DNA of 64,000 nt from Pseudobythopirellula maris (GCF_007859945.1 NZ_SJPQ01000001.1:372001-436000), one strand, 5' to 3'; positions 38,128 to 52,084 are shown, counted from the first letter of the stretch. Made by a program: numbers and translations. The notes: generated by a model not told the origin, from the sequence alone.

Positions 38128-38508
38128 ATGGGCGAAGCGAAGCAAATCCTGCTGGTCGAAGAAGACCCGACGCTGCGCGAAATCACCGCGTTCCGCCTCG
38201 AGCTGCTCGGCTACGTGGTCGAGAGCCGCGGCAGCGCCGAAGAGGCGTTGCTGGCGATCCAAGAGGGCCTGCCCGACGCGGTCGTCGTCGGCCACTACCT
38301 GCCAGACATCGACGGCATGGAGTTGATCGACCGGCTGAGCAATGACCTGCGAACCGGCGACGTGCCGGTGATGATGCTCTCGCCCAACGCCGAGTTGGAC
38401 GACGTGCAGCGCGCCTTCAACGCCGGGGCCGACGACTACCTGGTGGTGCCTTTCGACCCGATCGTTCTTGAACAGAAGCTGCTGCGACTCACGTCGACTA
38501 CCGCCTAA
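38128..38508 (+). CDS. Degenerate receiver-domain protein (pseudo-receiver)
   Basis: A 126-residue single-domain protein with the response-regulator fold but without the phosphorylation chemistry. The strand that normally ends in the phospho-acceptor Asp reads AVVVGHYLPDIDG, so the position holds Gly55. The conserved lysine before PF is Val107 (DDYLVVPFDP). The acidic patch (VEEDP) and the Ser/Thr switch position (VMMLSPN) remain. It therefore cannot be phosphorylated in the usual way and probably acts as a protein-binding module. It is the first gene of the secretion/pilus operon, 88 bp before the GspE/PilB ATPase, where it may regulate assembly. Confidence 0.88.
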   Translation: MGEAKQILLVEEDPTLREITAFRLELLGYVVESRGSAEEALLAIQEGLPDAVVVGHYLPDIDGMELIDRLSNDLRTGDVPVMMLSPNAELDDVQRAFNAGADDYLVVPFDPIVLEQKLLRLTSTTA

Positions 38509-38596
38509 GCAAGACCGCACAACGCCGCGGCAAGCCACAGCCACAGCCGCATCCCACCTCAACGCCCTCACCCCAACGCCCCTCCCTAAGCGACGC

Positions 38597-40285
38597 ATGG
38601 CCCGGCTCGGCGACATCCTGGTGCGAAAAGGCCTGGTCACTCAGGCCCAACTCGAAGCGGCGCTCGCCTCGCAAGGCTCGGAGCGCGGCATGCTCGGCCA
38701 GATCTTGCTGCGCCGCAGCCTGATCTCACTCGACCAACTCGGCGACGCGCTGGCCGAGCAGTACGGCGTTCCCTACCTCGACCTCGTGCCGCAGGCCGTC
38801 AACCCGCAGGTCGCCCGGTTGCTCCCCGAAGACCTGGCCCGCACACGTTGCTGCGTGCCGGTCGGTGTGAGCGGCGGCGAGCTGCGGCTCGCCATGGTCA
38901 TGCCGGACGACATCGACACGATCTGCGAGACCGAGCTGATCACCGGCTACCAAGTGCGGCCGATGGTCGCGTTGGAGACAGCCGTCAACGCGGCGCTCGA
39001 CCGCGGTTTTGACGACCGGCTGGTGGCCCGGCAGACGATCGTCGACATGAAGATGGCCGACCTCGAATCGGCCGAGCACCTCACCGACGTCGACACCGCC
39101 GCCCCGGTGGTCGCCGAAGAAGAACAGGCGCCGGTGGTGCGGCTCGTGCGATCGATCTTGATGGGCGCCATCAACGCCAACTGCAGCGACATCCACCTCG
39201 AACCGCACACGCCCGAGATGCGGGTCCGCTATCGTGTTGACGGCGAGTTGCAAGCGGTCATGACGATCCCGAACCACACCGAAGAGGCGGTCGTCGCGCG
39301 CATCAAGGTGATGGCCGACATGGACACGACCGAGAACCGCCGCCCGCAAGACGGCCGGCTGACAATCACCGAGGCGGGCTCGAACGTCAACTTCCGGGTG
39401 AGCACCATCCCCACGGTGGGCGGCGAGAAGGTCGTCATGCGACTGCTCGACGAGGGGGGACGCAGCTTCGATCTCGAATCGTTGGGCCTTGGCGCCCGCG
39501 ATCTCAAGGCGGTCAACCGCCTGATCGCCAAGCCGCACGGCATGATCGTGGTGACCGGTCCCACGGGCTCGGGCAAGTCAACGACCATGTACGCCGTGCT
39601 CTCGAAGCTCAACGCCGTGAGCCGCAACATCGTCACGGTGGAGGACCCGGTCGAGTACCGGCTGAGCGGCGTCAATCAGGTCGCGTCGGACAACGACCAC
39701 GGTCTCGGGTTCGCCAACGCGCTGAAGTACATCATGCGTCAGGACCCCGACGTGGTGATGGTCGGCGAGATCCGTGACCACGAGACCGCCACGACCGCCG
39801 TGCAGGCGTCGCTCACCGGCCACCTGCTCATCAGCACGCTGCACACGAACGACGCCATCGGCGCCGTCGCCCGGTTGGGCGACCTGGGGATCGACAACTT
39901 CAAGATCGGCGGCGCCTTGCTGGGCTCGGTCGCCCAACGGCTGCTGCGATCGATTTGCCCGGCGTGCAAAGAGCCGGTCGAGCCTAACGAGTCGCTGCTC
40001 AAATCGCTCTCGCACAACACCAAAGTGCCCGCGGACGCCGTCTTCTTCCGCGGCCGCGGCTGCAAGAAGTGCTTGGGCACGGGCTACATGGGGCGGATCC
40101 CGATCTACGAGATCATGGAAATGAGCCCGGCTCTGGCCGAGGCGGTCGAGAAGGGTATGCCGGCGACGCAACTCCGCCAGATCGCCCGCGGCGAGGGCAT
40201 GGTCGAGTTGGCCCAGGCCGGCATGGAGCAGGTGCTCGCCGGCAAGACCACCCTCGAAGAAGTCTTCTACAAGATCAGCAGCTAA
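38597..40285 (+). CDS. gspE: GspE/PilB-type secretion ATPase
   Basis: About 562 residues from ATG 38597 (MARLGDILVRKGLVTQAQLE), where the MshE-type N-terminal domain begins; the frame is open upstream into the receiver gene, which I reject. An N2 domain leads to the ATPase core with RYRVDGEL, Walker A GPTGSGKST (Lys327), the Asp box VEDPVEYRLSG, Walker B region DPDVVMVGEIRD and the His box GHLLISTLHTND. A four-cysteine zinc site (CPACKEP and CKKCLGTGYMGR) is intact. It is a hexameric cytoplasmic motor that powers pseudopilus or pilus assembly. It is followed by the platform gene after 28 bp. All ATPase motifs are present, so it should be active. Confidence 0.94.
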   Translation: MARLGDILVRKGLVTQAQLEAALASQGSERGMLGQILLRRSLISLDQLGDALAEQYGVPYLDLVPQAVNPQVARLLPEDLARTRCCVPVGVSGGELRLAMVMPDDIDTICETELITGYQVRPMVALETAVNAALDRGFDDRLVARQTIVDMKMADLESAEHLTDVDTAAPVVAEEEQAPVVRLVRSILMGAINANCSDIHLEPHTPEMRVRYRVDGELQAVMTIPNHTEEAVVARIKVMADMDTTENRRPQDGRLTITEAGSNVNFRVSTIPTVGGEKVVMRLLDEGGRSFDLESLGLGARDLKAVNRLIAKPHGMIVVTGPTGSGKSTTMYAVLSKLNAVSRNIVTVEDPVEYRLSGVNQVASDNDHGLGFANALKYIMRQDPDVVMVGEIRDHETATTAVQASLTGHLLISTLHTNDAIGAVARLGDLGIDNFKIGGALLGSVAQRLLRSICPACKEPVEPNESLLKSLSHNTKVPADAVFFRGRGCKKCLGTGYMGRIPIYEIMEMSPALAEAVEKGMPATQLRQIARGEGMVELAQAGMEQVLAGKTTLEEVFYKISS

Positions 40286-40313
40286 AGCCCCCGCAGCGTA
40301 GGACCCGAGAAGC

Positions 40314-41465
40314 GTGCGATCGATCGCCACTAAAAAACGACTCAACACCCTCGGCGCCGGCCCCGCCGGACGCGAGGCGGCGGACTTGTTCGCTCGCCTG
40401 AAGGGTCTCTCGTTGCGCCGCTCGGAGAAGCTCTCACGCGACGAGGTGACGTACTTTTTCAGCAGCCTCGCGACTCTGATCGGCAACGGTGTGCCGCTCG
40501 CCAAGGCGCTCACCGCCATAGAGCAGGAGAAGAGTCTCGAGCGACGCAAGGCGATCTTTGCGAAGATCCGCCGGCAGATCGAGGCGGGCGGGTCGTTCAG
40601 CCAAGCCTTGCAAACGGCCGACGAGTCGTTCGATTCGATCGTGCTCAGCCAGGTCCGTGTGGGCGAGCGCGCCGGCGCCCTGGCCGAGTGCCTCGCCAAC
40701 ATCGCCGAACAACGCAAGCAAGCGGGCCGCCTACGCGAAGAAGTGCTCAAGAAGCTCGCCTACCCGGTCACCCTGGCGGTGATCGGCTCGGGCGTGGTGG
40801 CGTTCTTGCTGGCGTACGTGGTGCCGGTCTTCGAAGAGACTTACCGCAAGTCGCAAGTCCCGTTGCCGTGGATCACGCGGTTTTTGATCCAGATCGGCTC
40901 GGTGGTCCAGACTTACTGGTGGGCCGTGCTGCTCGCTGTCGCCACGAGCTTCCTCGTATTCGGGGCGCTCCGACGCAGGGAGGCGCTCGCCCGCGCCATG
41001 GACGACCGCATCTTGCGTCTGCCGCTCCTCGGGCCGTGGATCCGCGACGCCGCGTTGCTGCAGCTGATGGACGTGCTCGGCAACCTGATGGGCGCCGGCT
41101 TCACGCTGGCCGAGGCCTTGCGCGAGGCGAGCGACTCGGTCAGCAACCGAGCGATGAAGGCGGGCGCCGTCGACCTGCAACGCGCCGTGCAACGCGGCGA
41201 GCGGTTCAGTCGGCAGGTCGAGACCCACGCCGCGCTCTTCCCGCCGATGGTCAGCCAGCTGATCATCGTCGGCGAGCAGACCGGCAACCTGGTGCGTGCG
41301 ACCTCGCACGTGCGTGAACACCTGCGGCACGAGATCGAGCGCAAGAGCACGATCGCGGTCGGCGTGATCGAGCCGGTCTTGACGATCGGCCTGGCGTCGG
41401 CCGTCGCGGCGATCCTGCTGGCGATCTACTTGCCCATGTTCGACATGATCAACACGGTTGGATAA
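40314..41465 (+). CDS. gspF: GspF/PilC-type inner-membrane platform protein
   Basis: A protein of 383 residues starting at GTG 40314. It shows two T2SSF domains, each followed by membrane helices: TYFFSSLATLIGNGVPLAKA, GGSFSQALQTADESFDSIVL, VRVGERAGALAECLANIAEQ, LPLLGPWIRDAALLQLMDVL and MVSQLIIVGEQTGNLVRA, with the last helix near PVLTIGLASAVAAILLAIYL. It is the inner-membrane platform on which the GspE motor acts to extrude or retract pilin subunits. The gene lies between the ATPase and the first pseudopilin with gaps of 28 and 5 bp. Confidence 0.93.
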   Translation: MRSIATKKRLNTLGAGPAGREAADLFARLKGLSLRRSEKLSRDEVTYFFSSLATLIGNGVPLAKALTAIEQEKSLERRKAIFAKIRRQIEAGGSFSQALQTADESFDSIVLSQVRVGERAGALAECLANIAEQRKQAGRLREEVLKKLAYPVTLAVIGSGVVAFLLAYVVPVFEETYRKSQVPLPWITRFLIQIGSVVQTYWWAVLLAVATSFLVFGALRRREALARAMDDRILRLPLLGPWIRDAALLQLMDVLGNLMGAGFTLAEALREASDSVSNRAMKAGAVDLQRAVQRGERFSRQVETHAALFPPMVSQLIIVGEQTGNLVRATSHVREHLRHEIERKSTIAVGVIEPVLTIGLASAVAAILLAIYLPMFDMINTVG

Positions 41466-41470
41466 CGCCC

Positions 41471-41803
41471 ATGAGCCCTTCCCATACTAGCCGCGGCGCC
41501 TTCTCGCTGCTCGAGCTGATGGCGGTGGTCGTCGTGCTGGGCGTGCTCGCCGCGATCATCGTGCCGCGTGTCTCGATCCACGTCGACAATTCCCAGGCCA
41601 CCGTCTGCCACGTGAACAAGCGCCTCGTCGAGTCGCAGGCTCATTTGTGGTGGTTCCACAACGATGAGTTCCCGCTCAGCGATTTGTCAGACATCGAAGT
41701 CGATCCCGATTATTTCCCCGAGGGGATCCCCACATGCCCGATAGACGGCACAAGCTACACAATCGACACCAATACGGGCCTCGTGAACGGGCACAATCAC
41801 TAA
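41471..41803 (+). CDS. Pseudopilin, GspG-like, with Ala at -1
   Basis: A 110-residue type IV pilin-like protein. The signal reads SRGAFSLLELMAVVVVLGVL, with Glu at +5 and a long hydrophobic helix; the residue before the cleavage site is alanine where glycine is usual. The globular part keeps the short GspG-like layout (VNKRLVESQAHLWWFHNDEF, then DPDYFPEGIPTCPIDGTSY). It starts 5 bp after gspF. It would be a major or minor subunit of the pseudopilus, inserted in the inner membrane. The -1 alanine might slow processing by the prepilin peptidase, which is encoded elsewhere. Confidence 0.85.
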   Translation: MSPSHTSRGAFSLLELMAVVVVLGVLAAIIVPRVSIHVDNSQATVCHVNKRLVESQAHLWWFHNDEFPLSDLSDIEVDPDYFPEGIPTCPIDGTSYTIDTNTGLVNGHNH

Positions 41804-41920
41804 TTTTTTCTGTTTCACTTTGCAGCGTCTGCTAGCGACCTATCTTCCAGTATCAGCAACTTGACTATCGGCACACTATCCTACTGAGTTACACGACTAC
41901 AGCATCTGCAGGTAACTGTT

Positions 41921-42247
41921 ATGGCTACACGTAAGAATAAAGGACGCGGCGGCTTCTCGCTCATGGAACTGTTGGCCGTGGTCACGATCCTGGGCGTCAT
42001 CGCCGCGATCGTCGTGCCCCGCGTCACGGTCTCCACGACGACGGCCAAAGAGAAGGTCGACGCCCACAACCGGGCGACCCTGAACTCGGCGATCGAGCGT
42101 TACTACATCGCCACCAACGACTGGCCCTCGGCAAACTTGACCGAGCTGAACACGACGGACTACTTCCCCGACGGCCTGCCGGAGAACCCGCTGAACGCCA
42201 GCGCCCCGTACGCGATGGACGCCACCTCGAAGCGCATCGCTCCGTGA
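41921..42247 (+). CDS. Pseudopilin, GspG-like, probable major subunit
   Basis: A 108-residue protein with a canonical class III signal, RGGFSLMELLAVVTILGVIA, with Gly at -1 and Glu at +5. Its globular part (NSAIERYYIATNDWP, DYFPDGLPENPLN) is homologous to that of the preceding pseudopilin, so the pair probably arose by duplication. A 117-bp gap separates them, unusually long for this operon, and contains TTGACT at 41861 with a weak -10 (TACTGA, 41882, 15-bp spacing). A dedicated promoter would fit a highly expressed major pilin. This is inference from spacing and motif quality. Confidence 0.87.
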   Translation: MATRKNKGRGGFSLMELLAVVTILGVIAAIVVPRVTVSTTTAKEKVDAHNRATLNSAIERYYIATNDWPSANLTELNTTDYFPDGLPENPLNASAPYAMDATSKRIAP

Positions 42248-42268
42248 GCCCAGGCGGACCAACCGCTC

Positions 42269-42766
42269 ATGATTCAATCGATACCCACAGCACGCCACCG
42301 CCAGCGGTGGCGTGCTTTTTCGTTGCTGGAGCTCACCGCCACGGTCGCGGTCATCGGCCTGGTCGCCACGATGGCGCTGCAGCGATACGGCAGCACGACC
42401 CTCGGCACGACCCGAGCCGAGGGCTACACCCGGCGGCTGGTGCTCGACCTGCGCCAGGCTCAGCGGCGGGCGATCGCCACCGGCGATGACCACTACGTGG
42501 CTTTCGCCAGCGACAGCGGCGAGATCGTCTCGCACACGCTGATGCGCGACCTGCCCGGCGGCGACGCCGCGGCCGACGAAACGGTCGCCGTCCCCCAGGG
42601 GGTGACCGTCACCTCGGCCGACACGGCCTGGACCTACGACTTCGAGGGGGCCGTGAGCGGGTCTTCCGGCGGTTCGACGGTGCGCGTCGACAGCTCCACC
42701 GCCTACTGGGTGATCACCCTGTACCAGGCGACCGGCGCCCTCCGGTCGCAACGGTTTGCGCCGTGA
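42269..42766 (+). CDS. Minor pseudopilin, GspH-like
   Basis: A protein of 165 residues with the pilin signal RAFSLLELTATVAVIGLVAT (Ala at -1, Glu at +5) and the GspH-type pattern RAEGYTRRLVLDLRQAQRRA followed by a beta-rich domain (DDHYVAFASDSGEIV, TVRVDSSTAYWVI). GspH proteins are minor subunits near the tip or body of the pseudopilus. It begins 21 bp after the preceding pilin gene. Confidence 0.8.
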   Translation: MIQSIPTARHRQRWRAFSLLELTATVAVIGLVATMALQRYGSTTLGTTRAEGYTRRLVLDLRQAQRRAIATGDDHYVAFASDSGEIVSHTLMRDLPGGDAAADETVAVPQGVTVTSADTAWTYDFEGAVSGSSGGSTVRVDSSTAYWVITLYQATGALRSQRFAP

Positions 42767-42904
42767 TGCGGGCCGCCAGATGCGGTCGCCGTTTTTGACC
42801 GCCCGAGGGGGCGAGCTATGTTTCTGCAGCGCGCCCCGCTGCGCGCACAGGGTGTTTCCTGTCCGCAGCGGCGGCCCATCCCCCGCACGCCCCTTTCCGT
42901 TTCC

Positions 42905-43348
42905 ATGCATCGCCGCCCCCCAAATAGAACGGGCTTCTCGCTCATCGAGGTCGTGGCCGCCACGGCGCTCGTGGGGGGCACGCTTGTCGCCACACTCGAG
43001 CTGCTCCAGAGTGGGATGCTGCTCAGCAAGGAACTCGATCGGCAACGGGCGATGGTCACCCTGGCGGTGAGCACAATGGAGGCCCAGATGGTCGAGGCCG
43101 CGAGCGATTGGACCGAAGGAACCTTCACCGGCGACTACGCGACCGAGGGCTACCCCGAGGTCCGATACACGGCGATCCGCAGCGACAGCGCCGGCTACCA
43201 CGGGATCCCCGACCGCTTGATGGTGCTGGCCGTCTATGTCTACCACGACGAGAACGGCAACAACTCGATGGACTCGAACGAACGCCAGCTGATGCTCGCC
43301 ACGCAGGTCGCCAAACTGTTCACCTACGAGAACGCCGTTCATGGCTAA
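42905..43348 (+). CDS. Minor pseudopilin, GspI/PilV-like
   Basis: About 147 residues from ATG 42905 (MHRRPPNRTG); the frame opens at 42818 but the extension is not pilin-like. The signal is RTGFSLIEVVAATALVGGTL, followed by the GspI-like stretch RQRAMVTLAVSTMEAQMVEA and a beta-rich part. It overlaps the next gene by 8 bp. GspI homologues nucleate the pseudopilus tip with GspJ and GspK. Confidence 0.78.
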   Translation: MHRRPPNRTGFSLIEVVAATALVGGTLVATLELLQSGMLLSKELDRQRAMVTLAVSTMEAQMVEAASDWTEGTFTGDYATEGYPEVRYTAIRSDSAGYHGIPDRLMVLAVYVYHDENGNNSMDSNERQLMLATQVAKLFTYENAVHG

Positions 43349-43862
43349 GCCCAAGTCGCAACAGTCGCGGCGGGGTTTCTCGCTGCTCGAGATGATGCTC
43401 GCCACCACGTTGAGCGCCGCGCTCGTCACGTCGACGGTCGTGGTGCTGCGTTCGTCCTACGCGGTTTGGACCCTGCACCAGGGCGACGCCGAGCAGGCCG
43501 AACAAGCCAGCGCCGTGCTGCGTCACCTGACACGCGCCTGCCGACAGGCGGACATGGTGGTGTCGATCAGCGCGAGCGGCGACCCGGCCGGGTCGCTCGA
43601 GGTGCTCACCAAGAGCGGCGACACTATCGGCTGGGAGCTCGACAGCGACACGGTGAACTACTCGTCGCAAGCGGCCGGCACGACGTCGCCGCTCGCTTTC
43701 GGCATCGACACACTCACGTTCGAAGGGTTGCTGGCCGACGGGTCGACCACGGCCGACGACCCCTCGGAAGTGCAAGCGATACGCTGCAGCGTGGGAACCA
43801 CGATCCCGTCGTCGGGCGCCACGCGCACGATCGGCTCGACCCTCTGGATGCGATCATGGTGA
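43341..43862 (+). CDS. Minor pseudopilin, GspJ/PilW-like
   Basis: A protein of 173 residues with the pilin signal RRGFSLLEMMLATTLSAALV, then EQAEQASAVLRHLTRACRQA (the GspJ/PilW-like helix) and a beta-rich globular region (DMVVSISASGDPAGSLEVL, VQAIRCSVGTTIP). It overlaps the preceding minor pilin by 8 bp and the next gene by 7 bp, which indicates translational coupling. Confidence 0.78.
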   Translation: MAKPKSQQSRRGFSLLEMMLATTLSAALVTSTVVVLRSSYAVWTLHQGDAEQAEQASAVLRHLTRACRQADMVVSISASGDPAGSLEVLTKSGDTIGWELDSDTVNYSSQAAGTTSPLAFGIDTLTFEGLLADGSTTADDPSEVQAIRCSVGTTIPSSGATRTIGSTLWMRSW

Positions 43863-44227
43863 ACCGCACTCGTAAAAACCGAAGCACGCCCGAGCGTCGT
43901 GGCGCCACGCTGCTGATCGCGCTGTTTGTGTTGGCGACGGTCAGCTCGCTGGTCGTCAACATCCTCAGCACGCAAACGATCGAGTGGTCGGCCGTGCGCA
44001 ACACGCTGGCCCACGAGCAAGCGCTCTACATGGCCAGCGCCGGCGTCCACCGAGCCGCGGCCGAGCTGGAGGCCAACTCCGCCTGGGTGGGGACCGTCGA
44101 CGTGTCGGCCTTCGGGTTCAGCTACAGCGTCACGGCGGTGGACAACGGCCTGGGAGGGGTTTCGGTCACCTCGACGGGAACGGTCTCCGCCACGTCCCGG
44201 GCCCTGGAAGCCACCATCGAACTCTAA
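43856..44227 (+). CDS. Short GspK/PilX-like minor pilin
   Basis: A protein of 123 residues starting at ATG 43856, inside the end of the previous gene. The signal GATLLIALFVLATVSSLVVN lacks the Glu at +5, as is usual in GspK, and is followed by the GspK/PilX-like helix NTLAHEQALYMASAGVHRAA and a small beta domain. GspK proteins have about 300 residues, so this one lacks the large helical insertion and is nearer to PilX. It may cap the pseudopilus tip. The frame is open further upstream in the preceding gene; only the part from 43856 fits a pilin. Confidence 0.75.
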   Translation: MVNRTRKNRSTPERRGATLLIALFVLATVSSLVVNILSTQTIEWSAVRNTLAHEQALYMASAGVHRAAAELEANSAWVGTVDVSAFGFSYSVTAVDNGLGGVSVTSTGTVSATSRALEATIEL

Positions 44228-44253
44228 CAACGCGTTAACCGAGACACCAACCG

Positions 44254-45825
44254 ATGCCCAACACACCCCCCAAAGATCGGCGGCAGAGCCCCGACCGGCG
44301 CGACGATCGCGCCCGGCGCAAGCACAGCGAGTCGCGCGTGCTCTGCATCGAGGTCTGCCGGTCGACGCTCAAGGCCGTGATCGTCACGCGGCAGGAGAAA
44401 AGCGGCGCCTTCCACGTCGAGACCAGCACCAAGGTCTGGCGCCACGAGGCGACGCGACTAGGCACCGAGCTCGGCTCGCGCGAGCTGACCGTGGCGCTCA
44501 AGGAGTTCGTCGCCGAGGGCCGGCTGGCGGGCTGCCGGGCGGCGTTCACTCTCAACTGCGACGCCTGTGTCACGCGCTCGACTTCCGGCGCCAAGCAGGT
44601 GGTCGAGCAGGAGCTCACCTCGCTCGGCGAGCGGAGCCAGCTTTACTTGTCGCTCGGCCCGGGTCCCAAGGCGTTGTCGGTCCACCGCACGCCGATCGAC
44701 GCCCGCCACGAGCACGGCCTGGTCACGGTGGCCAACGAGCAAACGGTCTCGTCGTTGGCCACAGCCGCCGAGGCGGCGGGCTTGCGTTTGGAGGTGGTCG
44801 AGTCGTCGATCGTGTCGGTCGCCCGCTTGCTCGACCGGATGGGGGTCGCGACCGACGCCCCCACCGCCATGGTGATCCTCGACGAGGACCGCTTCGACCT
44901 GGGCGTCTGCTACCAGGGCATCCCGTTGCTCGAGGTCCGGCCCACCGCCGCCGCCACGGCCGAAGAGTTCGGCCCCGTCGTGTCGGACTATCACAAGCGG
45001 TTGCTGCGGTACTGCAACCGCCTGCACGGTTTGGGATCGGCCAAGCTCGACAAGCTCTTGCTCATCGGCCAGCGGGACGAAGTCGAGTCGGCCACGCGGA
45101 GCCTCGACGACCAATCCGCCAAGTTCGAAACCGAGGGTTTCGAGATCGGCGATCTCGGCCCCGACTGGCAAGTCGATCCCGAGTCGCTCGACTCGGAGAT
45201 GACCGGCGCTCTGGGGCTCGCGTTGCGTTGCAGCGAGCCCTCCGCCCAGCGGAACGGCCCGAACCTGATGGAAGACTACCTGGCGCGGGTGAAAACGCCG
45301 CTCATGCCCATCGTGCTGCGTGCGCTCTCCCCCGTGGGGGCGGTGCTGGCGGCTTCGTTGGCTTTGGCGTTGTGGAATGCGGGCCTCCGCACGGAGGTCG
45401 ATCAACTCGACAGCGAGTACCTACGCCTCAGGCCGGTGCAGCTCGAGAGCATGGCCCTCGGCAAGTCCCTGCGGTCAACCGAATCGATGCAGGAAAACCT
45501 AGCCCAACTGGGCGACGCGCTGCCCCGGCCGTCGCTCTTCACGGTCATGACACGCGTACGGCAATGCCTGCCGAGCGATGTTTGGATCAACCACTTCGCT
45601 CTGAGCGACTACGAGCGGGTCGATTTGCGTGGCGACAGCTACACCGAGGGCGGTGTGTACGACTTCGTTTCCTACCTTGGCAAAGCGCCGGGGGTGTCGG
45701 AGACGGCCCTCAAAGCGACCGGAGCGGGTCAATCGCCCCAAGGGCCAACAACCAGCTTCGACGTGCAGTTTGATCTGACAACGACCAAAGCCTTCGCATC
45801 CCCACCGGAGAAGAGCCGTGGATGA
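44254..45825 (+). CDS. PilM-PilN fusion (GspL-like) assembly protein
   Basis: A 523-residue protein. Residues about 28-330 resemble the actin-like ATPase PilM or the cytoplasmic part of GspL (VLCIEVCRSTLKAVIV, RLEVVESSIVSVARLL, TAMVILDEDRFDLGVCYQG, LLLIGQRDEVE). A transmembrane segment follows (LSPVGAVLAASLALALWNAG, near 365), then a PilN-like periplasmic domain (QCLPSDVWINHFALSDYERV). It starts with a very basic, probably disordered tail (PPKDRRQSPDRRDDRARR). The role is to couple the cytoplasmic ATPase to the periplasmic alignment complex. It overlaps the PilO-like gene by 8 bp. Confidence 0.82.
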   Translation: MPNTPPKDRRQSPDRRDDRARRKHSESRVLCIEVCRSTLKAVIVTRQEKSGAFHVETSTKVWRHEATRLGTELGSRELTVALKEFVAEGRLAGCRAAFTLNCDACVTRSTSGAKQVVEQELTSLGERSQLYLSLGPGPKALSVHRTPIDARHEHGLVTVANEQTVSSLATAAEAAGLRLEVVESSIVSVARLLDRMGVATDAPTAMVILDEDRFDLGVCYQGIPLLEVRPTAAATAEEFGPVVSDYHKRLLRYCNRLHGLGSAKLDKLLLIGQRDEVESATRSLDDQSAKFETEGFEIGDLGPDWQVDPESLDSEMTGALGLALRCSEPSAQRNGPNLMEDYLARVKTPLMPIVLRALSPVGAVLAASLALALWNAGLRTEVDQLDSEYLRLRPVQLESMALGKSLRSTESMQENLAQLGDALPRPSLFTVMTRVRQCLPSDVWINHFALSDYERVDLRGDSYTEGGVYDFVSYLGKAPGVSETALKATGAGQSPQGPTTSFDVQFDLTTTKAFASPPEKSRG

Positions 45826-46441
45826 CGCCCCAATCGCCAAAGTCCTCCTGTCCCGAAAGCGCTGGATCATCGTCGCAGCCGCTTCATTGCTGACAGGACT
45901 CTTCACTATCCTGCCTCAAGTCGATGAGAGGATTAGCCTCTACGACGAGAGGTCGGAACTGCGTCACGAGCTCGCGCTGGCCAGCGAGGCCGCCGAGGGG
46001 CTCGACAAGCTCCGGGTGCTCGTTGCAGCCAAGCAGGCCGAGTTGGCTCTGCTCGAGGCGAACACCGTCGACGAGACCAACGCCCCGCAGGTGCGGAACT
46101 GGTTCGTCGAAACGGCGCGGTCGGCGGGTTGCCGTTTGCGCCGGCTCGACCTGGGCGAGCCGAGCCGCCACGCCTGGCGACCGGGCGACAACCCGCTCGA
46201 ACCGACCACCACCAAAGGAACCGGCAAGCAGCCTTACAACCTGGAGACCCGAGCGATCACGCTCTCGGCCACCGGCGCCGCGGACGAGATCGACCGACTG
46301 GTCCGCTCGCTTGATGACGACGGGCGGTGGAAGCACATCAAGTCGTTCGAGCTGCGGCCCACCAGCCGCCTGGGCGAAGAGGTGCAACTCGAGGTCGTGC
46401 TGCTGTACTTCGCGTTGACGGAGAATGACAAAGTCGCTTGA
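45818..46441 (+). CDS. PilO/GspM-like alignment protein
   Basis: A protein of 207 residues with one membrane helix (RWIIVAAASLLTGLFTILP), a coiled-coil (about 35-95, rich in Leu, Ala and Glu) and a ferredoxin-like periplasmic domain (ETRAITLSATGAADEIDRLV, FELRPTSRLGEEVQLEVVLL). This is the layout of PilO and GspM, which pair with PilN/GspL to align the inner- and outer-membrane parts of the machine. The assignment rests mainly on topology and position. Confidence 0.75.
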   Translation: MDDAPIAKVLLSRKRWIIVAAASLLTGLFTILPQVDERISLYDERSELRHELALASEAAEGLDKLRVLVAAKQAELALLEANTVDETNAPQVRNWFVETARSAGCRLRRLDLGEPSRHAWRPGDNPLEPTTTKGTGKQPYNLETRAITLSATGAADEIDRLVRSLDDDGRWKHIKSFELRPTSRLGEEVQLEVVLLYFALTENDKVA

Positions 46442-46451
46442 GCGGTTGGCG

Positions 46452-46512
46452 TGTCTCGGTTGAGGCGTCGGGCGTTTTCCACAAGGAGACCGGCGCCAGA
46501 ACAACCGAGACA
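46452..46512 (+). repeat. Inverted repeat in the leader of the secretin gene
   Basis: TGTCTCGGTTG (46452-46462) and its exact reverse complement CAACCGAGACA (46502-46512) enclose 39 nt. They lie in the only sizeable gap (165 bp) between the alignment genes and the secretin. A second small hairpin (CCCGCC/GGCGGG, near 46564-46580) is closer to the start codon. These could tune secretin expression within the operon. Confidence 0.45.
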
Positions 46513-46606
46513 GAGAATCGACTGATTGACAAAGTGGGGAAGGACCCCCAGCGAGCGAGCAGACCCGCCCCCTCGGCGGGCCGACACTAAGCAGGGAAGC
46601 TAACGC

Positions 46607-48802
46607 ATGGCACGAGGCCGCTGGCATCACGGCGCCGACCGGGTCGAAGACCCGCGCGGCTCGCTGCGCACACGCAGTGTGCGTGGGCTGGCGATGTTGC
46701 TGGCTGCCTTGCTGATCTGCCCGCCGCTCGCCGCTCAGGCGCAGGAGGCGGCCGCCCCCAAAGCGGGGCCCGCCCAATCGACGCTCGCCGATGCCCTCGA
46801 ACGCCGCGGCGACCTGACGCTCCGCGACTCGACGCTCGAGGGGGCGCTGTTCACCATCAGCGAGCTGTGGGGCATCAACATCGTCTCGGCCGGCGCCAAC
46901 GGCACGGTCAACGGCGTGTTCAAGGACGCCCCGCTGCGGGAGATCCTCGACTCGATCTTGCTGAGCAACGGCTTCGGCTACCGACCGGTGGGCGCCAGCC
47001 TCGTAGTGAGCCCGCTCGAGCAACTCGGCAAGGTGAACCCGTACTTCGTGTCGGCCACCATCCCGGTCACCCGGGCCGACGTGGCCGAGGTGGTCGCGGG
47101 CGCCCAACTGCTCACCACGCCGCAGGGCCAGATCCGCGCGATCCCCTCGGCGCGGAGCATCTTCGTTTTGGACTTTGCCGACCGCGTCGAGAAAATCCGC
47201 GAGTTCGTGGAAACGATCGACGGCCGTCGGGCGCCCGGCGAAGCTTCGCAAATCGGCGGCGGCAACGCGTCCGCCCGCGGGTCGCAGCTCGAGGTGGCCT
47301 ACTTCCGCGTCCACTACATCACCGCCGTCCAGGCCGAGAGCCTTGTGACGCCGCTCCTGAGCTCGGTCGGCAAATCGGCGATCTTGCAGGGCGAAGATCG
47401 GATGCTCGTGATCGACTACGGCCGCAACGTGCAGGCGATCAGCGCAGTGCTCGACCGCTTCGACCGCCCGCGGCCGCAGGTCACCATCAAGGCGCTCATC
47501 TACGACATCAGTCTGTCGGACCTCGAGGAGATCGGGCTCAACTGGAGCAGCCAGAACGGCGGCTCGGTGAGCGCCGCGGGGGTTCCGCAGTCGGGCAACG
47601 GCCTGATGGTCGACTCGGCGCTCAAGGCGCCGTTTGACGCCTCCGGCAACGGCGGCACGTTCACGTTCTTCAGCCTCAGCAACAGCTTCAACCTGCAGGC
47701 GGTGGCGCTCGCGCTGCAATCGGCGGGCGACTCGCGGCTTTTGGCCGACCCCAACGTGACGGTCGTCGACAACGAAGAGGCCAACATCGAGAGCGTCTCA
47801 GAGATCCCCTACCAACAGCTCACCCAAACGGCGGCCGGGGGGCAGATCGGCACCACCTCGTTCAAGGAGGCGGGCATCAAGCTGCGTGTCACGCCCAAGA
47901 TCGCCCGCGACGGCACGATCGACCTCGTCGTCGAGCCCGAGTTCAGCCGCCTGGCGGGGTACACCGAGGGCGACTCCCAGCCGATCATCGACACCCGTCG
48001 CGCCAGCACACGGGTGCGGATCGCCAACCGCCAAACGCTGATGATCGGCGGCCTGCGGCAGCGGGCCGACGTGGGCGACTTCCGCGGCATCCCCGGCCTC
48101 AAAGACATGCGGGTGCTCGGCCACCTGTTCCGCGCCCGCGAGACGGAGATCCGCGAGAGTGAGCTAGTGGTGTTCCTCACCCCCGAGATCGTCGGCTACT
48201 CCGACCCGCTGAACCGCCGCGATCAGCTCTCGGCCGACACCGTGCGCTGCCGGCTGGCGCGGATCCCCTTCGCCGAAGGCTGCCCCCCAGGCGAGTGCTA
48301 CAACGGCGACCCGTGCGGCGACGACATCGAGACCGGCTCGTGTTCGACATGCGAAACCGTGCCGGTGATCGTTCCCCCCACGATGGACTCCCAAGGGGCG
48401 CCGGTGCTCGAGCCGAGCAGTGAGCACGGCCCCTACCCCGCCAGCGAAACGCAAGAGATCTTGCCGATCCCCTCCGAGCCCGGCCCGGGAGGCGATGACT
48501 TCGGCGTCACGACGCCGCGCGGTCGCGCCGTGACCCCCACGCCGTACCGTCTGCCCACGGTGGACGGCGCAAGCGATACGCACGCGGTCGCCACGAGGCC
48601 CGCCGACCCCGAGGCTTCGGACGAGGCGGCTGAAGAACAGAAGGCGAGTCGCATGCGTCCCGACTTCGAATCGCGGTTCCGGTCGACCGGCGGCGTGTAC
48701 GCCAACCAGCAGCGCAAGGCGCCCGCCGAGCAAGACACGCAGGCCGAGACCGCCGAAGGCCAGCCCAAGAAGTCCGCCTGGCGTCGGCTGATGTGGTGGT
48801 GA
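46607..48802 (+). CDS. Outer-membrane secretin (GspD/PilQ-like) with Cys-rich extension
   Basis: A 731-residue protein with a long N terminus before a hydrophobic signal segment (RGLAMLLAALLICPPLAAQA). N-domains follow (TLRDSTLEGALFTISELWGI, APLREILDSILLSNGFGYRP, AIPSARSIFVLDFADRVEKI). The secretin domain (about 290-535) has VTIKALIYDISLSDLEEIGL, FKEAGIKLRVTPKIARDGTI, NRQTLMIGGLRQ and ESELVVFLTPEIV. It forms the gated outer-membrane channel. The C-terminal 190 residues are unusual: six cysteines in about 40 residues (RCRLARIPFAEGC, GECYNGDPC, GSCSTC, about 547-585), then a low-complexity Pro/Glu/Arg-rich tail. Confidence 0.92.
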   Translation: MARGRWHHGADRVEDPRGSLRTRSVRGLAMLLAALLICPPLAAQAQEAAAPKAGPAQSTLADALERRGDLTLRDSTLEGALFTISELWGINIVSAGANGTVNGVFKDAPLREILDSILLSNGFGYRPVGASLVVSPLEQLGKVNPYFVSATIPVTRADVAEVVAGAQLLTTPQGQIRAIPSARSIFVLDFADRVEKIREFVETIDGRRAPGEASQIGGGNASARGSQLEVAYFRVHYITAVQAESLVTPLLSSVGKSAILQGEDRMLVIDYGRNVQAISAVLDRFDRPRPQVTIKALIYDISLSDLEEIGLNWSSQNGGSVSAAGVPQSGNGLMVDSALKAPFDASGNGGTFTFFSLSNSFNLQAVALALQSAGDSRLLADPNVTVVDNEEANIESVSEIPYQQLTQTAAGGQIGTTSFKEAGIKLRVTPKIARDGTIDLVVEPEFSRLAGYTEGDSQPIIDTRRASTRVRIANRQTLMIGGLRQRADVGDFRGIPGLKDMRVLGHLFRARETEIRESELVVFLTPEIVGYSDPLNRRDQLSADTVRCRLARIPFAEGCPPGECYNGDPCGDDIETGSCSTCETVPVIVPPTMDSQGAPVLEPSSEHGPYPASETQEILPIPSEPGPGGDDFGVTTPRGRAVTPTPYRLPTVDGASDTHAVATRPADPEASDEAAEEQKASRMRPDFESRFRSTGGVYANQQRKAPAEQDTQAETAEGQPKKSAWRRLMWW

Positions 48803-48924
48803 CGGCTGTGCGGCCGGCGCCGGTCGTAGCGGCCGCAATCTGAGCGAGCTGCGAGCCGCCCGGTGCGTGTGGGGGAGCTATCTTTTTAGCATCCTCCCAA
48901 GGCCCCTCGCCCTGCGCCAAGCTC

Positions 48925-49416
48925 ATGATCTCTCGACGCTCAATCCTGTCGCTCCTGTTGCTGTCCAGCCTTCTGGGGGCGCCCGGCTGTGGAGAGAGTA
49001 CGGTCGAGAACGCGACGCTAAAAGTCGCCGAGACGATCGCCCCCGAAACGCTGCTCGACGCGATCGCGGCCGAGGAGCAACAAGCCGAGAAAGCCGCTGC
49101 CGAGGCGCCGGTCGAGACAACGATCGAGCAGCAGTTGGCCGCTTACGAGCCGCCGTTCCCGGAGCGGGTGAGTCTATTTACTCCCCCCATGGGCGCCGCC
49201 CGCAACGCCCGCCGCGCCGGGAGCGACCGCGCCGAGAGCGTTGAGCTCTTGGGCTTTGCTTCGGTCGACGGGCCGGTCGTGGTGCTGCAGATCGACGGCG
49301 TCGTCATGCCACTGGCGATCGGCGACGAGCACGACGGCGTGCAGGTGCTGTCGGCCGCGCCGCCGCGTGCGGTGCTGCAACGCGGCCGCAACCGCTGGAC
49401 CGCGTCGATCCAGTGA
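48925..49416 (+). CDS. PilP/GspC-like protein of the secretion/pilus operon
   Basis: A protein of 163 residues with an N-terminal export signal (SILSLLLLSSLLGAPGC) that may be a lipoprotein signal, though the lipobox is weak. A Glu/Ala-rich linker (about 30-75) and a small beta domain (VELLGFASVDGPVVVLQIDG, PLAIGDEHDGVQVLSAAPPR, AVLQRGRNRW) follow. That domain resembles the HR domain of PilP/GspC, which contacts the secretin N0 domain. As last gene of the operon, just after the secretin, this role is likely, but sequence similarity is modest. Confidence 0.65.
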   Translation: MISRRSILSLLLLSSLLGAPGCGESTVENATLKVAETIAPETLLDAIAAEEQQAEKAAAEAPVETTIEQQLAAYEPPFPERVSLFTPPMGAARNARRAGSDRAESVELLGFASVDGPVVVLQIDGVVMPLAIGDEHDGVQVLSAAPPRAVLQRGRNRWTASIQ

Positions 49417-49437: not shown

Positions 49438-51105
49438 CTAGCTCGCTCCGCCGCTAGGTTCGGCCGCCGCCTCGCCGCCGAGTTGCGTGTCGCCCCACGG
49501 GTTCGTGGGCCTTGTGAGCGCCTCATGCTGCTGCTGGGCGAGATCGTCTTCGACCACCCGCTGCGGCCGCGCGACACGGAGCTGGAGCGTCTCGCGGGCG
49601 GCCCGCTGAAGATTCACCAGCAACACGCACCCCGCCGCCGAACACGTGGCGAGCAACACGTTCTGCTCCTGATCGGGGGAGAGCGCCCCTTCGCCGAACT
49701 TGAAGAAGGTCCACACCGGGTTGGTGAGCTGCCAGTAGGTGTATTCCAGTCCACGGATGCGGTCGCTCATCGACTGGATGACGTAGGGAATGCCCGATCC
49801 GCCGAGCACCGTGAGGAACGTCACGAGCGAGCACCCCAACAGTGACAAAGGCGCCAGGCGCCTGAGCGCGGCGATCGCCAAACGGCTCGCCCCGAGATAG
49901 AAAACGAGGTAGGCCCAGCAAATCAGCAGCAGCTGAGCGACCCGCACGTTCGAGAAACTGCCGGCGGTCGAGAAAATCCCGCCCGCCAGATGAAGCACGA
50001 GCAGGCCCAACAGCATCAGGAGCGTGGCGTTGGAGACTGCGAACATGTAGCCCGAAGCGGGCCCCGGGTTGAGCCAAGTGAACACCAATCGTCCGGCAAA
50101 CGATTGCGGCAGCGTGCGTCGCACGCGGTGCGAGAGAACCGGCATCTCGCCGATCAGCACCGATCCGGCCAAGCCCCAAAAGACGTAACCAACCACCGTT
50201 GTCATCATAAGAAACCCTTGGTCGCTAAAGCCAATGCGACTGAGGGTGTCGACGAACCAACCAATAAGCACCGCCTGCAAAGCCACCAGCGCCAGCCGGA
50301 TGGGCGTCGACCGATTTGCGCTGCTGAAAGTGGTGAGGCCCGCGGCGCCGAGATAAACGATGGCTAGCACGCCGGCGTAGACCCCCAGCAACCAGCCGTT
50401 GAAATTCCAGAAAAAGTTTTCTTGCAAAAGGTCTGCCGAATTGAACAGCAGCCACCAGGAAAGGTAGAGCTGCAAGTAGAGCATCAAAAAAAGTAAGCCA
50501 ACAAAGCCGACCGAGAGCACCACTTGGCTGTATTTCCGCGAGGTGGTGGCCGCCAGCAGCAATCCCGCCGCCGACAGGCCCACGGAGATCAACACGCTGT
50601 AGACCAGCAGCAACGCGACAATCGTCAAGTCCACACCGCGCAGCAAGTAGGTGAACGCGATGCAAGGCGCCAACGCCGACAGATAGATCACGGCCTGCAG
50701 CGCCGCGCTGCCGAGTTTGCCGTTGATGATCTGCCGGGGCGACAGCGTCGATACCTCGAGCAGGTCGCGGGTGTTCTCCTCCTGCTCGGCGAAGAGCGAT
50801 CGGTAGGCGGAGAACGGCACCACCACGGTGAGCGGCAGCGCGAGCACGCAATAATAGGCGTACAGCATCAAGTCGCCGGCGTGGACGTAATAAACGCTCG
50901 GCCCGATCGTCGCCACGCCGCCGATCGTCACGATCCAACTGGCCAGCAGCAGCAAGCCAAACCAAGCGGTGAACTGCTTGCTCTTGAGCGCCTGGCGGGT
51001 CTCTTTCACCAGGATGGGGTTGAGCCCCTCGCTGAGCGATTCGACCCACCGGTCGATCGTTGTCGCCCCGTCGCGGGGCGGTGTTTCCGTCATCGGATCG
51101 CTCAT
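49438..51105 (-). CDS. ABC-2 type transporter permease
   Basis: About 555 residues from ATG 51105 (MSDPMTETPP), which overlaps the stop of the ATPase gene in an ATGA arrangement; a longer frame to 51450 lies within the ATPase gene and is rejected. It begins with the cytoplasmic motif LNPILVKETRQALKSKQFTA, typical of planctomycete ABC-2 permeases, and has about 12 hydrophobic segments. The EENTRDLLEVSTLSPRQIIN stretch is a conserved cytoplasmic loop. The tail of about 70 residues is hydrophilic and Gln-rich. It forms the membrane channel for the ATPase encoded just upstream. Substrate unknown. It converges with the secretion operon, with only 21 bp between the stops. Confidence 0.88.
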   Translation of the reverse strand: MSDPMTETPPRDGATTIDRWVESLSEGLNPILVKETRQALKSKQFTAWFGLLLLASWIVTIGGVATIGPSVYYVHAGDLMLYAYYCVLALPLTVVVPFSAYRSLFAEQEENTRDLLEVSTLSPRQIINGKLGSAALQAVIYLSALAPCIAFTYLLRGVDLTIVALLLVYSVLISVGLSAAGLLLAATTSRKYSQVVLSVGFVGLLFLMLYLQLYLSWWLLFNSADLLQENFFWNFNGWLLGVYAGVLAIVYLGAAGLTTFSSANRSTPIRLALVALQAVLIGWFVDTLSRIGFSDQGFLMMTTVVGYVFWGLAGSVLIGEMPVLSHRVRRTLPQSFAGRLVFTWLNPGPASGYMFAVSNATLLMLLGLLVLHLAGGIFSTAGSFSNVRVAQLLLICWAYLVFYLGASRLAIAALRRLAPLSLLGCSLVTFLTVLGGSGIPYVIQSMSDRIRGLEYTYWQLTNPVWTFFKFGEGALSPDQEQNVLLATCSAAGCVLLVNLQRAARETLQLRVARPQRVVEDDLAQQQHEALTRPTNPWGDTQLGGEAAAEPSGGAS

Positions 51106-52079
51106 TGCACGCGCCCCCGTGTCACTTCGAGGAACACGTCTTCCAGGCTGCGGGTCCGGCAGCTGAAGTCGCTGACTTCCATGCCCGCCTCGATCATCGC
51201 ACGCAGCAGCCGGGCGCGGTCGGTGTCGTCTCCCACGAGGTCGAACTCCACCGCCTTCTGCGGCAGCGACGCCGGCCGTTGGTCGGGCACCGTCACCCCC
51301 TGCTGCTCGGCGAGCCAAGCCGCCGCCCGGCCGGGGTCGCCCACGAGCGTGGCCCGCACGGTCTGATGCTCCGCGACGCGCTCGCTGATCTCCTCGACCG
51401 AGCCGACGGCCAGCAACTGGCCCTGCTCGATGATGCCGACCCGGTCGCACACCTCGGCCAGCTCGGTGAGGATGTGCGAGCTGATCAGCACCGCCTTGCC
51501 CAGGTCGGCGAGCCGCGAGATCATCTCACGCAGCTCGATCCGCGCCCGCGGGTCGAGCCCGGCGGCCGGCTCGTCGAGCACCATGACCGAGGGGTCGTGG
51601 ATCATCGTCCGACCCAGGCAGAGCCGCTGCTTCATGCCCTTAGACAAACCGTCGATCGGCTTGAGCCGCAGCGGCTCCAAGCCGGTGAAGTCCATCGCGA
51701 ACGAGATCGCGTGCCGACGCTCCGAGCCCCGCAGACCGTAGGCGCGGGCGAAGAAGTCGAGGTACTCGCCAACATTCACGTTCTGATACGCGCCGTAGTA
51801 GTCCGGCATGAAGCCCAAACGCGACCGCACACGGTCGGGGTCTTCGACCACCGAGAAGCCGTCGACCCAGGCGTCGCCGCTGGTCGGCTCGTCGAGCGTG
51901 GCCAAGATCCGCATGCTGGTTGTCTTGCCGGCGCCGTTCGGGCCGATGTAGCCGAACACCTCGCCCGCCATCACCCGGAACGACACGTCGGCCACGGCGT
52001 GGGTGGGGCCGAACCAGCGGTTCACCCGGCTCAGCTCGATCTGGGGGTCGCCCTTCAGGCGAGTCGCGGCGTCGACCAT
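51102..52079 (-). CDS. ABC transporter ATP-binding protein
   Basis: About 325 residues. I prefer ATG 52079, which has GGAGGT ten bases upstream, over a GTG at 52091 that lies too close to it. Walker A is GPNGAGKTT, the signature is LSKGMKQRL, and Walker B is VMVLDEPAAGLDP, followed by the switch His in VLISSH. The C-terminal 90 residues are the accessory domain common to ABC-2 exporters (DFSCRTRSLEDVFLEVTRG). With the permease it forms an export or membrane-maintenance transporter. Confidence 0.92.
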   Translation of the reverse strand: MVDAATRLKGDPQIELSRVNRWFGPTHAVADVSFRVMAGEVFGYIGPNGAGKTTSMRILATLDEPTSGDAWVDGFSVVEDPDRVRSRLGFMPDYYGAYQNVNVGEYLDFFARAYGLRGSERRHAISFAMDFTGLEPLRLKPIDGLSKGMKQRLCLGRTMIHDPSVMVLDEPAAGLDPRARIELREMISRLADLGKAVLISSHILTELAEVCDRVGIIEQGQLLAVGSVEEISERVAEHQTVRATLVGDPGRAAAWLAEQQGVTVPDQRPASLPQKAVEFDLVGDDTDRARLLRAMIEAGMEVSDFSCRTRSLEDVFLEVTRGRVQ

Positions 52080-52084
52080 CGTGC

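Follow-up and report, generated by a model that had tools for sequence, protein, structure and literature searches.

What does a run of 13 plus-strand genes in Pseudobythopirellula maris build, when its products resemble parts of both type II secretion systems (T2SSs) and type IV pili (T4P)? The genes occupy positions 38128-49416 of the window, the whole 64,000-nucleotide stretch of DNA analyzed here (G000:C1:372001-436000 of a 5.07-Mb genome). The original prediction described a compact hybrid of the two systems, possibly planctomycete specific, with a non-phosphorylatable receiver. We regard the operon, with reasonable though far from complete confidence, as encoding a single, complete type IV filament machine that spans the envelope, operates in the manner of a T2SS, and represents a lineage of its own. 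Secretion rather than pilus display is the function we infer.

Gene content, order, and distribution

All predicted open reading frames and their types were recovered, although the protein at the M position lacks a family match. Pfam and NCBIfam assign the products to a receiver, T2SSE with MshEN, T2SSF, GspG-type pilins, GspH, GspJ, the GspK N-terminus, PilN, and a secretin, which places GspE, GspF, GspD, and a GspG-type core within one locus. Improved start calls put E at ATG 38597, I at ATG 42905, and K at ATG 43856. None of E, F, G1, G2, H, K, and D reaches the curated NCBIfam T2SS equivalog cut-offs, and no operon protein satisfies a curated T2SS, T4aP, or Tad equivalog model in that collection. 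As predicted, neither a prepilin peptidase nor PilT is encoded inside the operon; A24 peptidase domains and a PilT-like ATPase occur elsewhere in the genome.

All 18 family genomes compared share the order receiver-E-F-G1-G2-H-I-J-K-L-M-D-C without change (the contig of one, L040, stops inside D), an agreement far beyond chance. Two of these genomes carry an additional G2-like gene. The family appears to be Lacipirellulaceae, judging by the closest named relatives: Botrimarina hoheduenensis Pla111, B. colliarenosi Pla108, Adhaeretor mobilis HG15A2, and a Bythopirellula MAG. A single-protein search found L in 28 of 43 family genomes. In eight L-negative family genomes, each at least 90% complete, the window-type ATPase is missing too; their best ATPase scores ~484 bits, like T4P-type paralogues, compared with 860-910 bits where the operon is present. 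Within the family, then, the operon is accessory and is present either whole or not at all.

Beyond the family, synteny is largely retained in other Pirellulales (receiver-E-F-G-H-I-J-K-L-M-D, with C moved or inverted), and a few species split the operon. Some genomes of one Pirellulales group (f15) encode L-M-D, with or without C, at one place and a window-type ATPase at another; L-M-D lies apart from E-F and the pilins in L104, L113, L117, and L118, with C included in L113 and L117. In another order of the same class (L105 and L106), the gene order is again largely kept, with C and D in different positions; D lies inverted upstream in L105, and the stretch of L106 examined does not include D. 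Rubripirellula/Rhodopirellula-type loci consist of receiver-E-F-G1, the rest being absent. Of the genomes sampled, the L profile matched at least 77 of 297 in the order and at least 26 of 393 in the phylum, both lower bounds given that only a few top candidates per genome were scored; matches outside the class Planctomycetia were weak. A single-protein search of the contig collection with L gave no match, and one with E did give matches. Among the genomes sampled, the full operon occurs only in Planctomycetia. Specificity to planctomycetes is nevertheless slightly too strong a description, as partial runs exist in a Poribacteria MAG (receiver-G-E-F-H-I in a single run) and a Phycisphaerales MAG (receiver-E).

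The usual flanks in the family are acyltransferase-like and CBS genes upstream and an ABC permease and ATPase downstream on the opposite strand. At 49438-52091 on the minus strand, the window encodes a 558-aa membrane protein without a Pfam match and an ABC ATPase, genes that adjoin the operon in most of the Lacipirellulaceae examined. Just upstream of the receiver gene, L042, L045, L046, L048, L049, L052, and L053 have one more G1/G2-like pilin gene, on the opposite strand and pointing away; none was seen in the window.

Affiliation of the ATPase, platform, secretin, and envelope proteins

The assembly ATPase E (38597-40285, 562 aa; T2SSE 412 bits, MshEN 59 bits) is of GspE/PilB type. It scores higher against the PilB model (556 bits) than the GspE model (523), both below cut-off and with models of different length, and only 42 bits against the TadA-family model. 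Its c-di-GMP motif scores 54.7, above the NCBIfam cut-off of 38, and a CxxC...CxxC arrangement lies close to the C-terminus. The inner-membrane platform F (40314-41465, 383 aa, GTG start; T2SSF 163 bits) is a single-piece GspF/PilC-type protein whose best NCBIfam model is GspF (264 bits versus a cut-off of 424). The secretin D (46607-48802, 731 aa; Secretin 147 bits, two Secretin_N stretches, weak STN) scores 206 bits with GspD and 183 with PilQ, both below cut-off.

In a tree excluding the long branches PilT, HofB, and Eleftheria, window-type E and the Phycisphaerales ATPase form a clade (100/98) separate from that of proteobacterial-type GspE (92/94). The approximately unbiased (AU) test did not strongly reject a joint clade of E and GspE (p-AU 0.10) and gave 0.42 for E with the Poribacteria ATPase. 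In the best ATPase tree, E joins the MSHA-like ATPase of the same genome (L056) with weak support (75/74). Window-type D forms a 99/99 clade outside the 98/98 GspD clade, and by pairwise scores the MSHA-like secretin is the nearest to D among the genome's own. Both trees are small and do not settle origin.

The genome contains twelve T2SSE and eight secretin matches. One further locus (L057/L120) has recognizable T2SS E, F, G, H, J, K, L, M, and D genes. Unlike the window operon, it encodes a GspG above cut-off (100 versus 88.85 bits), a full-size 552-aa GspK with a T2SSK domain, and a 1206-aa secretin; its ATPase scores 610 bits with GspE and 569 with PilB, its secretin scores 326 with GspD, and no receiver gene was seen there. 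Its ATPase core is only 45% identical to that of E. Recent duplication of this T2SS was rejected as a source of the operon on that identity, the separation in the trees, and a p-AU of 0.08 for grouping. A T4P-type PilB/PilT/PilC cluster, including the PilT-like ATPase, is found at L055 and a PilM/PilQ-type locus at L121; given the latter, sharing of L-M-D-C with the genome's T4P was set aside. The MSHA-like locus (L056, G000:C2:1027000-1046000) encodes E, F, PilO, a secretin, a PAS histidine kinase, an HD-domain protein, and a receiver that keeps its Asp. A Tad-type locus lies at L060, and at L059:9929-14660 another T2SSE-type ATPase precedes two short F-like proteins, and no secretin was seen in that stretch. 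Catalytic A24 peptidase domains were located at C1:1407421, in the Tad-type locus, and at C4:452926. The sole A24_N domain found in the genome lies in a 133-aa A24_N-only open reading frame at G000:C2:1163368 (L122:6228-6629), with no catalytic A24 domain downstream in any frame; a split or rearrangement may have affected the general prepilin peptidase.

L (44254-45825, 523 aa), with a PilN Pfam match, is a GspL-type fusion of PilM and PilN. Its profile matches PilN of the T4aP machine (3jc8; E 7e-6), and its AlphaFold model (pLDDT 84) comprises an actin-like domain, a long helix that includes a membrane span, and a ferredoxin-like domain. PilM gave the best fold match (Z 22.5 over 295 residues), followed by FtsA; cytoplasmic EpsL reached Z 15.8 over 234 residues. 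By this model, the cytoplasmic part is predicted to be a full PilM-sized actin-like domain. PulL/GspL itself corresponds to a PilM-PilN fusion, and PilO and PilP have T2SS counterparts (PMC10191384, PMC4471445). The fusion in L is therefore a T2SS trait and provides no ground for calling the operon a hybrid, a description that is partly an effect of naming. What survives of it are real departures from the T2SS: a lipoprotein C, a K without the alpha-domain, the PilM-sized domain of L, and sub-cut-off E, F, G, H, K, and D. M (45818-46441, 207 aa) has no Pfam family match and is assigned to the PilO/GspM place by position; it is conserved in relatives. C (48925-49416, 163 aa) has a lipobox whose Cys22 is invariant in 26 sequences, a predicted lipid anchor that is PilP-like. 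Its modeled C-terminal six strands (pLDDT ~96) match GspC (3oss, Z 8.6) and PilP (Z 7.8).

Pilins, the gspH hairpin, and the pseudo-receiver

Both GspG-like prepilins are small. G1 (41471-41803, 110 aa) and G2 (41921-42247, 108 aa; N_methyl 26 bits) score 35 and 41 bits with NCBIfam GspG, against a cut-off of 88.85, and both give ComGC-like scores. G1 ends in GHxH in 19 of 19 family members (41780-41803 in the window), and a Poribacteria pilin ends in HNHE; the motif is a possible metal site. By alignment, G2 is the most conserved pilin, making it a candidate major pseudopilin. The 117-nt gap between G1 and G2 (41804-41920; median of ~140 nt in relatives) is by median the longest in the operon, and G2 may have its own promoter or leader. 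The minor prepilins are H (42269-42766, 165 aa; GspH 29 bits, XpsH 21 bits), I (42905-43348, 147 aa), J (43341-43862, 173 aa; N_methyl, GspJ 21 bits), and a short GspK-like K (43856-44227, 123 aa), which matches NCBIfam GspK (29 bits) over residues 15-73 only and lacks the alpha-domain. I and J were assigned by prepilin motif, weak scores, and conserved position. Glu5 is present in G1, G2, H, I, and J and absent from K, as in GspK.

The least expected part of the operon is a conserved RNA hairpin at 42287-42318 on the plus strand. It has up to 14 bp and lies ~40-60 nt past the G2 stop (40 nt in the window), within the leader codons of gspH. Across 21 aligned sequences, 91.5% of cells were paired, and both sides changed in 10 of 14 pairs. 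The covariation score was 0.546; shuffles gave 0.170 and slid partners no more than 0.127, and none of 500 shuffles scored as high. The right arm codes for the RRA residues that immediately precede the mature end of H and is therefore constrained by the protein; changes in the left arm match the right arm, which points to selection on structure. The T-run that follows is uneven, so the hairpin need not be a terminator. It is probably a stoichiometry device favoring G1 and G2.

A covariance model recovered the same site in five operons outside the training set (L042, L052, L116, L140, and L143; E 2e-9 to 2e-6). Against the P. maris genome, it gave a single strong match (48.8 bits; next 29.2), and it found no convincing match in distant Pirellulales operons. 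An Rfam search of the region returned no match. A literature search found no description of a gspG-gspH hairpin, weak evidence of absence given that mostly non-subscription papers were covered. The hairpin's range comprises Lacipirellulaceae and one close family (L116), at gspH starts such as those of L045, L047, L048, L052, and L166. A peptide signature, ARRxxxxRRA, precedes the mature end of H.

The receiver (38128-38508, 126 aa; Pfam Response_reg 72 bits) is a stand-alone pseudo-receiver, in which alignment places Gly55 at the phospho-Asp and Val107 at the conserved Lys. That it is non-phosphorylatable thus holds for the window and most of the family, but not across the wider set: of 59 distinct receivers adjoining window-type ATPases, 30 have D at the Asp site, 23 have G, 3 have S, 2 have N, and 1 has E. 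Lys is retained only in the Phycisphaerales and Poribacteria MAG receivers among the 59, and canonical receivers adjoin related ATPases in those MAGs. Helix 1, ITAFRLELLG (core FRLELLG), is near-invariant in relatives, which suggests a protein-binding surface. We infer that a phosphorylatable receiver was turned into a fixed partner that binds the ATPase or the platform. Known pseudo-receivers share the receiver fold without the key phosphotransfer residues (PMC12632262); that of the window differs in being stand-alone and fixed beside an assembly ATPase, and the text of that review does not contain the word "secretion."

Proposed mechanism and alternative explanations

In the proposed mechanism, a hexamer of E on platform F would draw processed G2/G1 pseudopilins out of the inner membrane to build a short filament with H-I-J-K at its tip. 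L, M, and the lipoprotein C would align the platform in the inner membrane with secretin D, and the filament would push cargo through this secretin. An A24 peptidase with its gene outside the operon would mature the prepilins in trans. Gating of the ATPase is probably exerted by c-di-GMP, predicted to bind at the MshEN domain, and probably also by the pseudo-receiver, through a putative protein contact rather than phosphorylation. In Lacipirellulaceae, the hairpin after both GspG genes would probably keep G1 and G2 in excess of the minor pilins and envelope parts.

A secretion machine is favored by the conserved gene order, the all-or-none loss, the PilM and PilN folds in L, and the PilP/GspC fold in C. 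H, I, J, and a K without Glu5 constitute the tip set of T2SS and T4aP; the operon has no retraction ATPase, and the T4P-type cluster and PilM/PilQ locus are separate. The above-cut-off c-di-GMP motif and the hairpin covariation point the same way. Against a T2SS-like reading stand the T4aP-like lipoprotein C, the PilM-sized domain of L, the higher PilB score of E, and the placement of E and D outside the GspE and GspD clades in small trees, although the AU test did not strongly reject a joint GspE clade (p-AU 0.10).

The main rival, which we consider unlikely, is a surface-displayed, non-retracting type IV pilus acting as an adhesin or substrate-binding fibre. The operon shares with T4aP the PilM-size actin-like domain, a PilP-type lipoprotein with the PilP fold, and an MshEN-bearing ATPase, and its short K lacks the GspK alpha-domain. 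Planctomycete pits, moreover, carry pili-like fibres that bind dextran (PMC5394234); that the operon makes such crateriform-pit fibres is conjecture. The major pilin candidates, however, are just 108-110 aa, and the separate T4aP, MSHA-like, and Tad loci could make surface fibres. The operon also differs from the T4aP machinery in its fused PilM and PilN, in the lack of a 140-160-aa major pilin, and in having no PilT of its own, the PilT-like ATPase being encoded at L055. A Tad/T4cP assignment conflicts with the lack of a TadA/CpaF-type ATPase and with a platform that is not split into TadB and TadC.

It is rather improbable that the operon is an ordinary T2SS, diverged in planctomycetes, orthologous to the proteobacterial system, and mechanistically in no way distinct. 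GspE, F, G, H, I, J, K, L, M, and D in one operon, the GspC homology-region fold of C, the best matches of F and D to GspF and GspD, the GspL-type fusion, and the p value of the GspE clade agree with it. Yet L057/L120 fits T2SS models better, and window-type E and D occupy clades of their own. The two GspG-like pilins are short, a pseudo-receiver is added, and C is a lipoprotein, whereas GspC is a bitopic inner-membrane protein. Gene order also differs, running E to K, L, M, D, C rather than C, D, E to M as in K-12. A DNA-uptake machine, suggested by small pilins with ComGC-like scores, is highly improbable, with no ComEA/ComEC-type gene among the operon proteins and four flanking genes scanned, and with GspL/M/C-type proteins and a secretin dedicated to the locus.

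A bolder reading, less likely than not, is a separate Planctomycetia branch of secretin-bearing type IV filament machines. Such a branch would have T4aP-type ancestry independent of the proteobacterial T2SS, having kept PilM- and PilP-type parts, with a pseudo-receiver at the ATPase and the gspH hairpin setting pseudopilin stoichiometry. The operon may help to show whether type IV filaments that secrete proteins have had more than one origin. Compact and all-or-none, it occurs in cultured species (Botrimarina, Adhaeretor), and its hairpin offers a testable mechanism for pseudopilin stoichiometry. A literature search, covering mostly non-subscription papers and thus weak evidence of absence, found no planctomycete operon of such make-up.

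Planctomycetes are major polysaccharide degraders. The operon flanks hold no hint of cargo. DUF1559 proteins, put forward as candidate partners by the original prediction, are abundant in 43 of 43 family genomes irrespective of the operon, with scoring limited to about 45 proteins per genome; they are therefore not specific partners and were dropped as dedicated ones. As discussed in Denise et al. 2019 (PMC6668835), the T2SS clade either has the T2SSs of Bacteroidetes (Cytophaga type) and Chlamydiae at its edge or does not include them, and these secretion-type loci of other phyla, likened here by description rather than by sequence, are placed similarly to the window operon.
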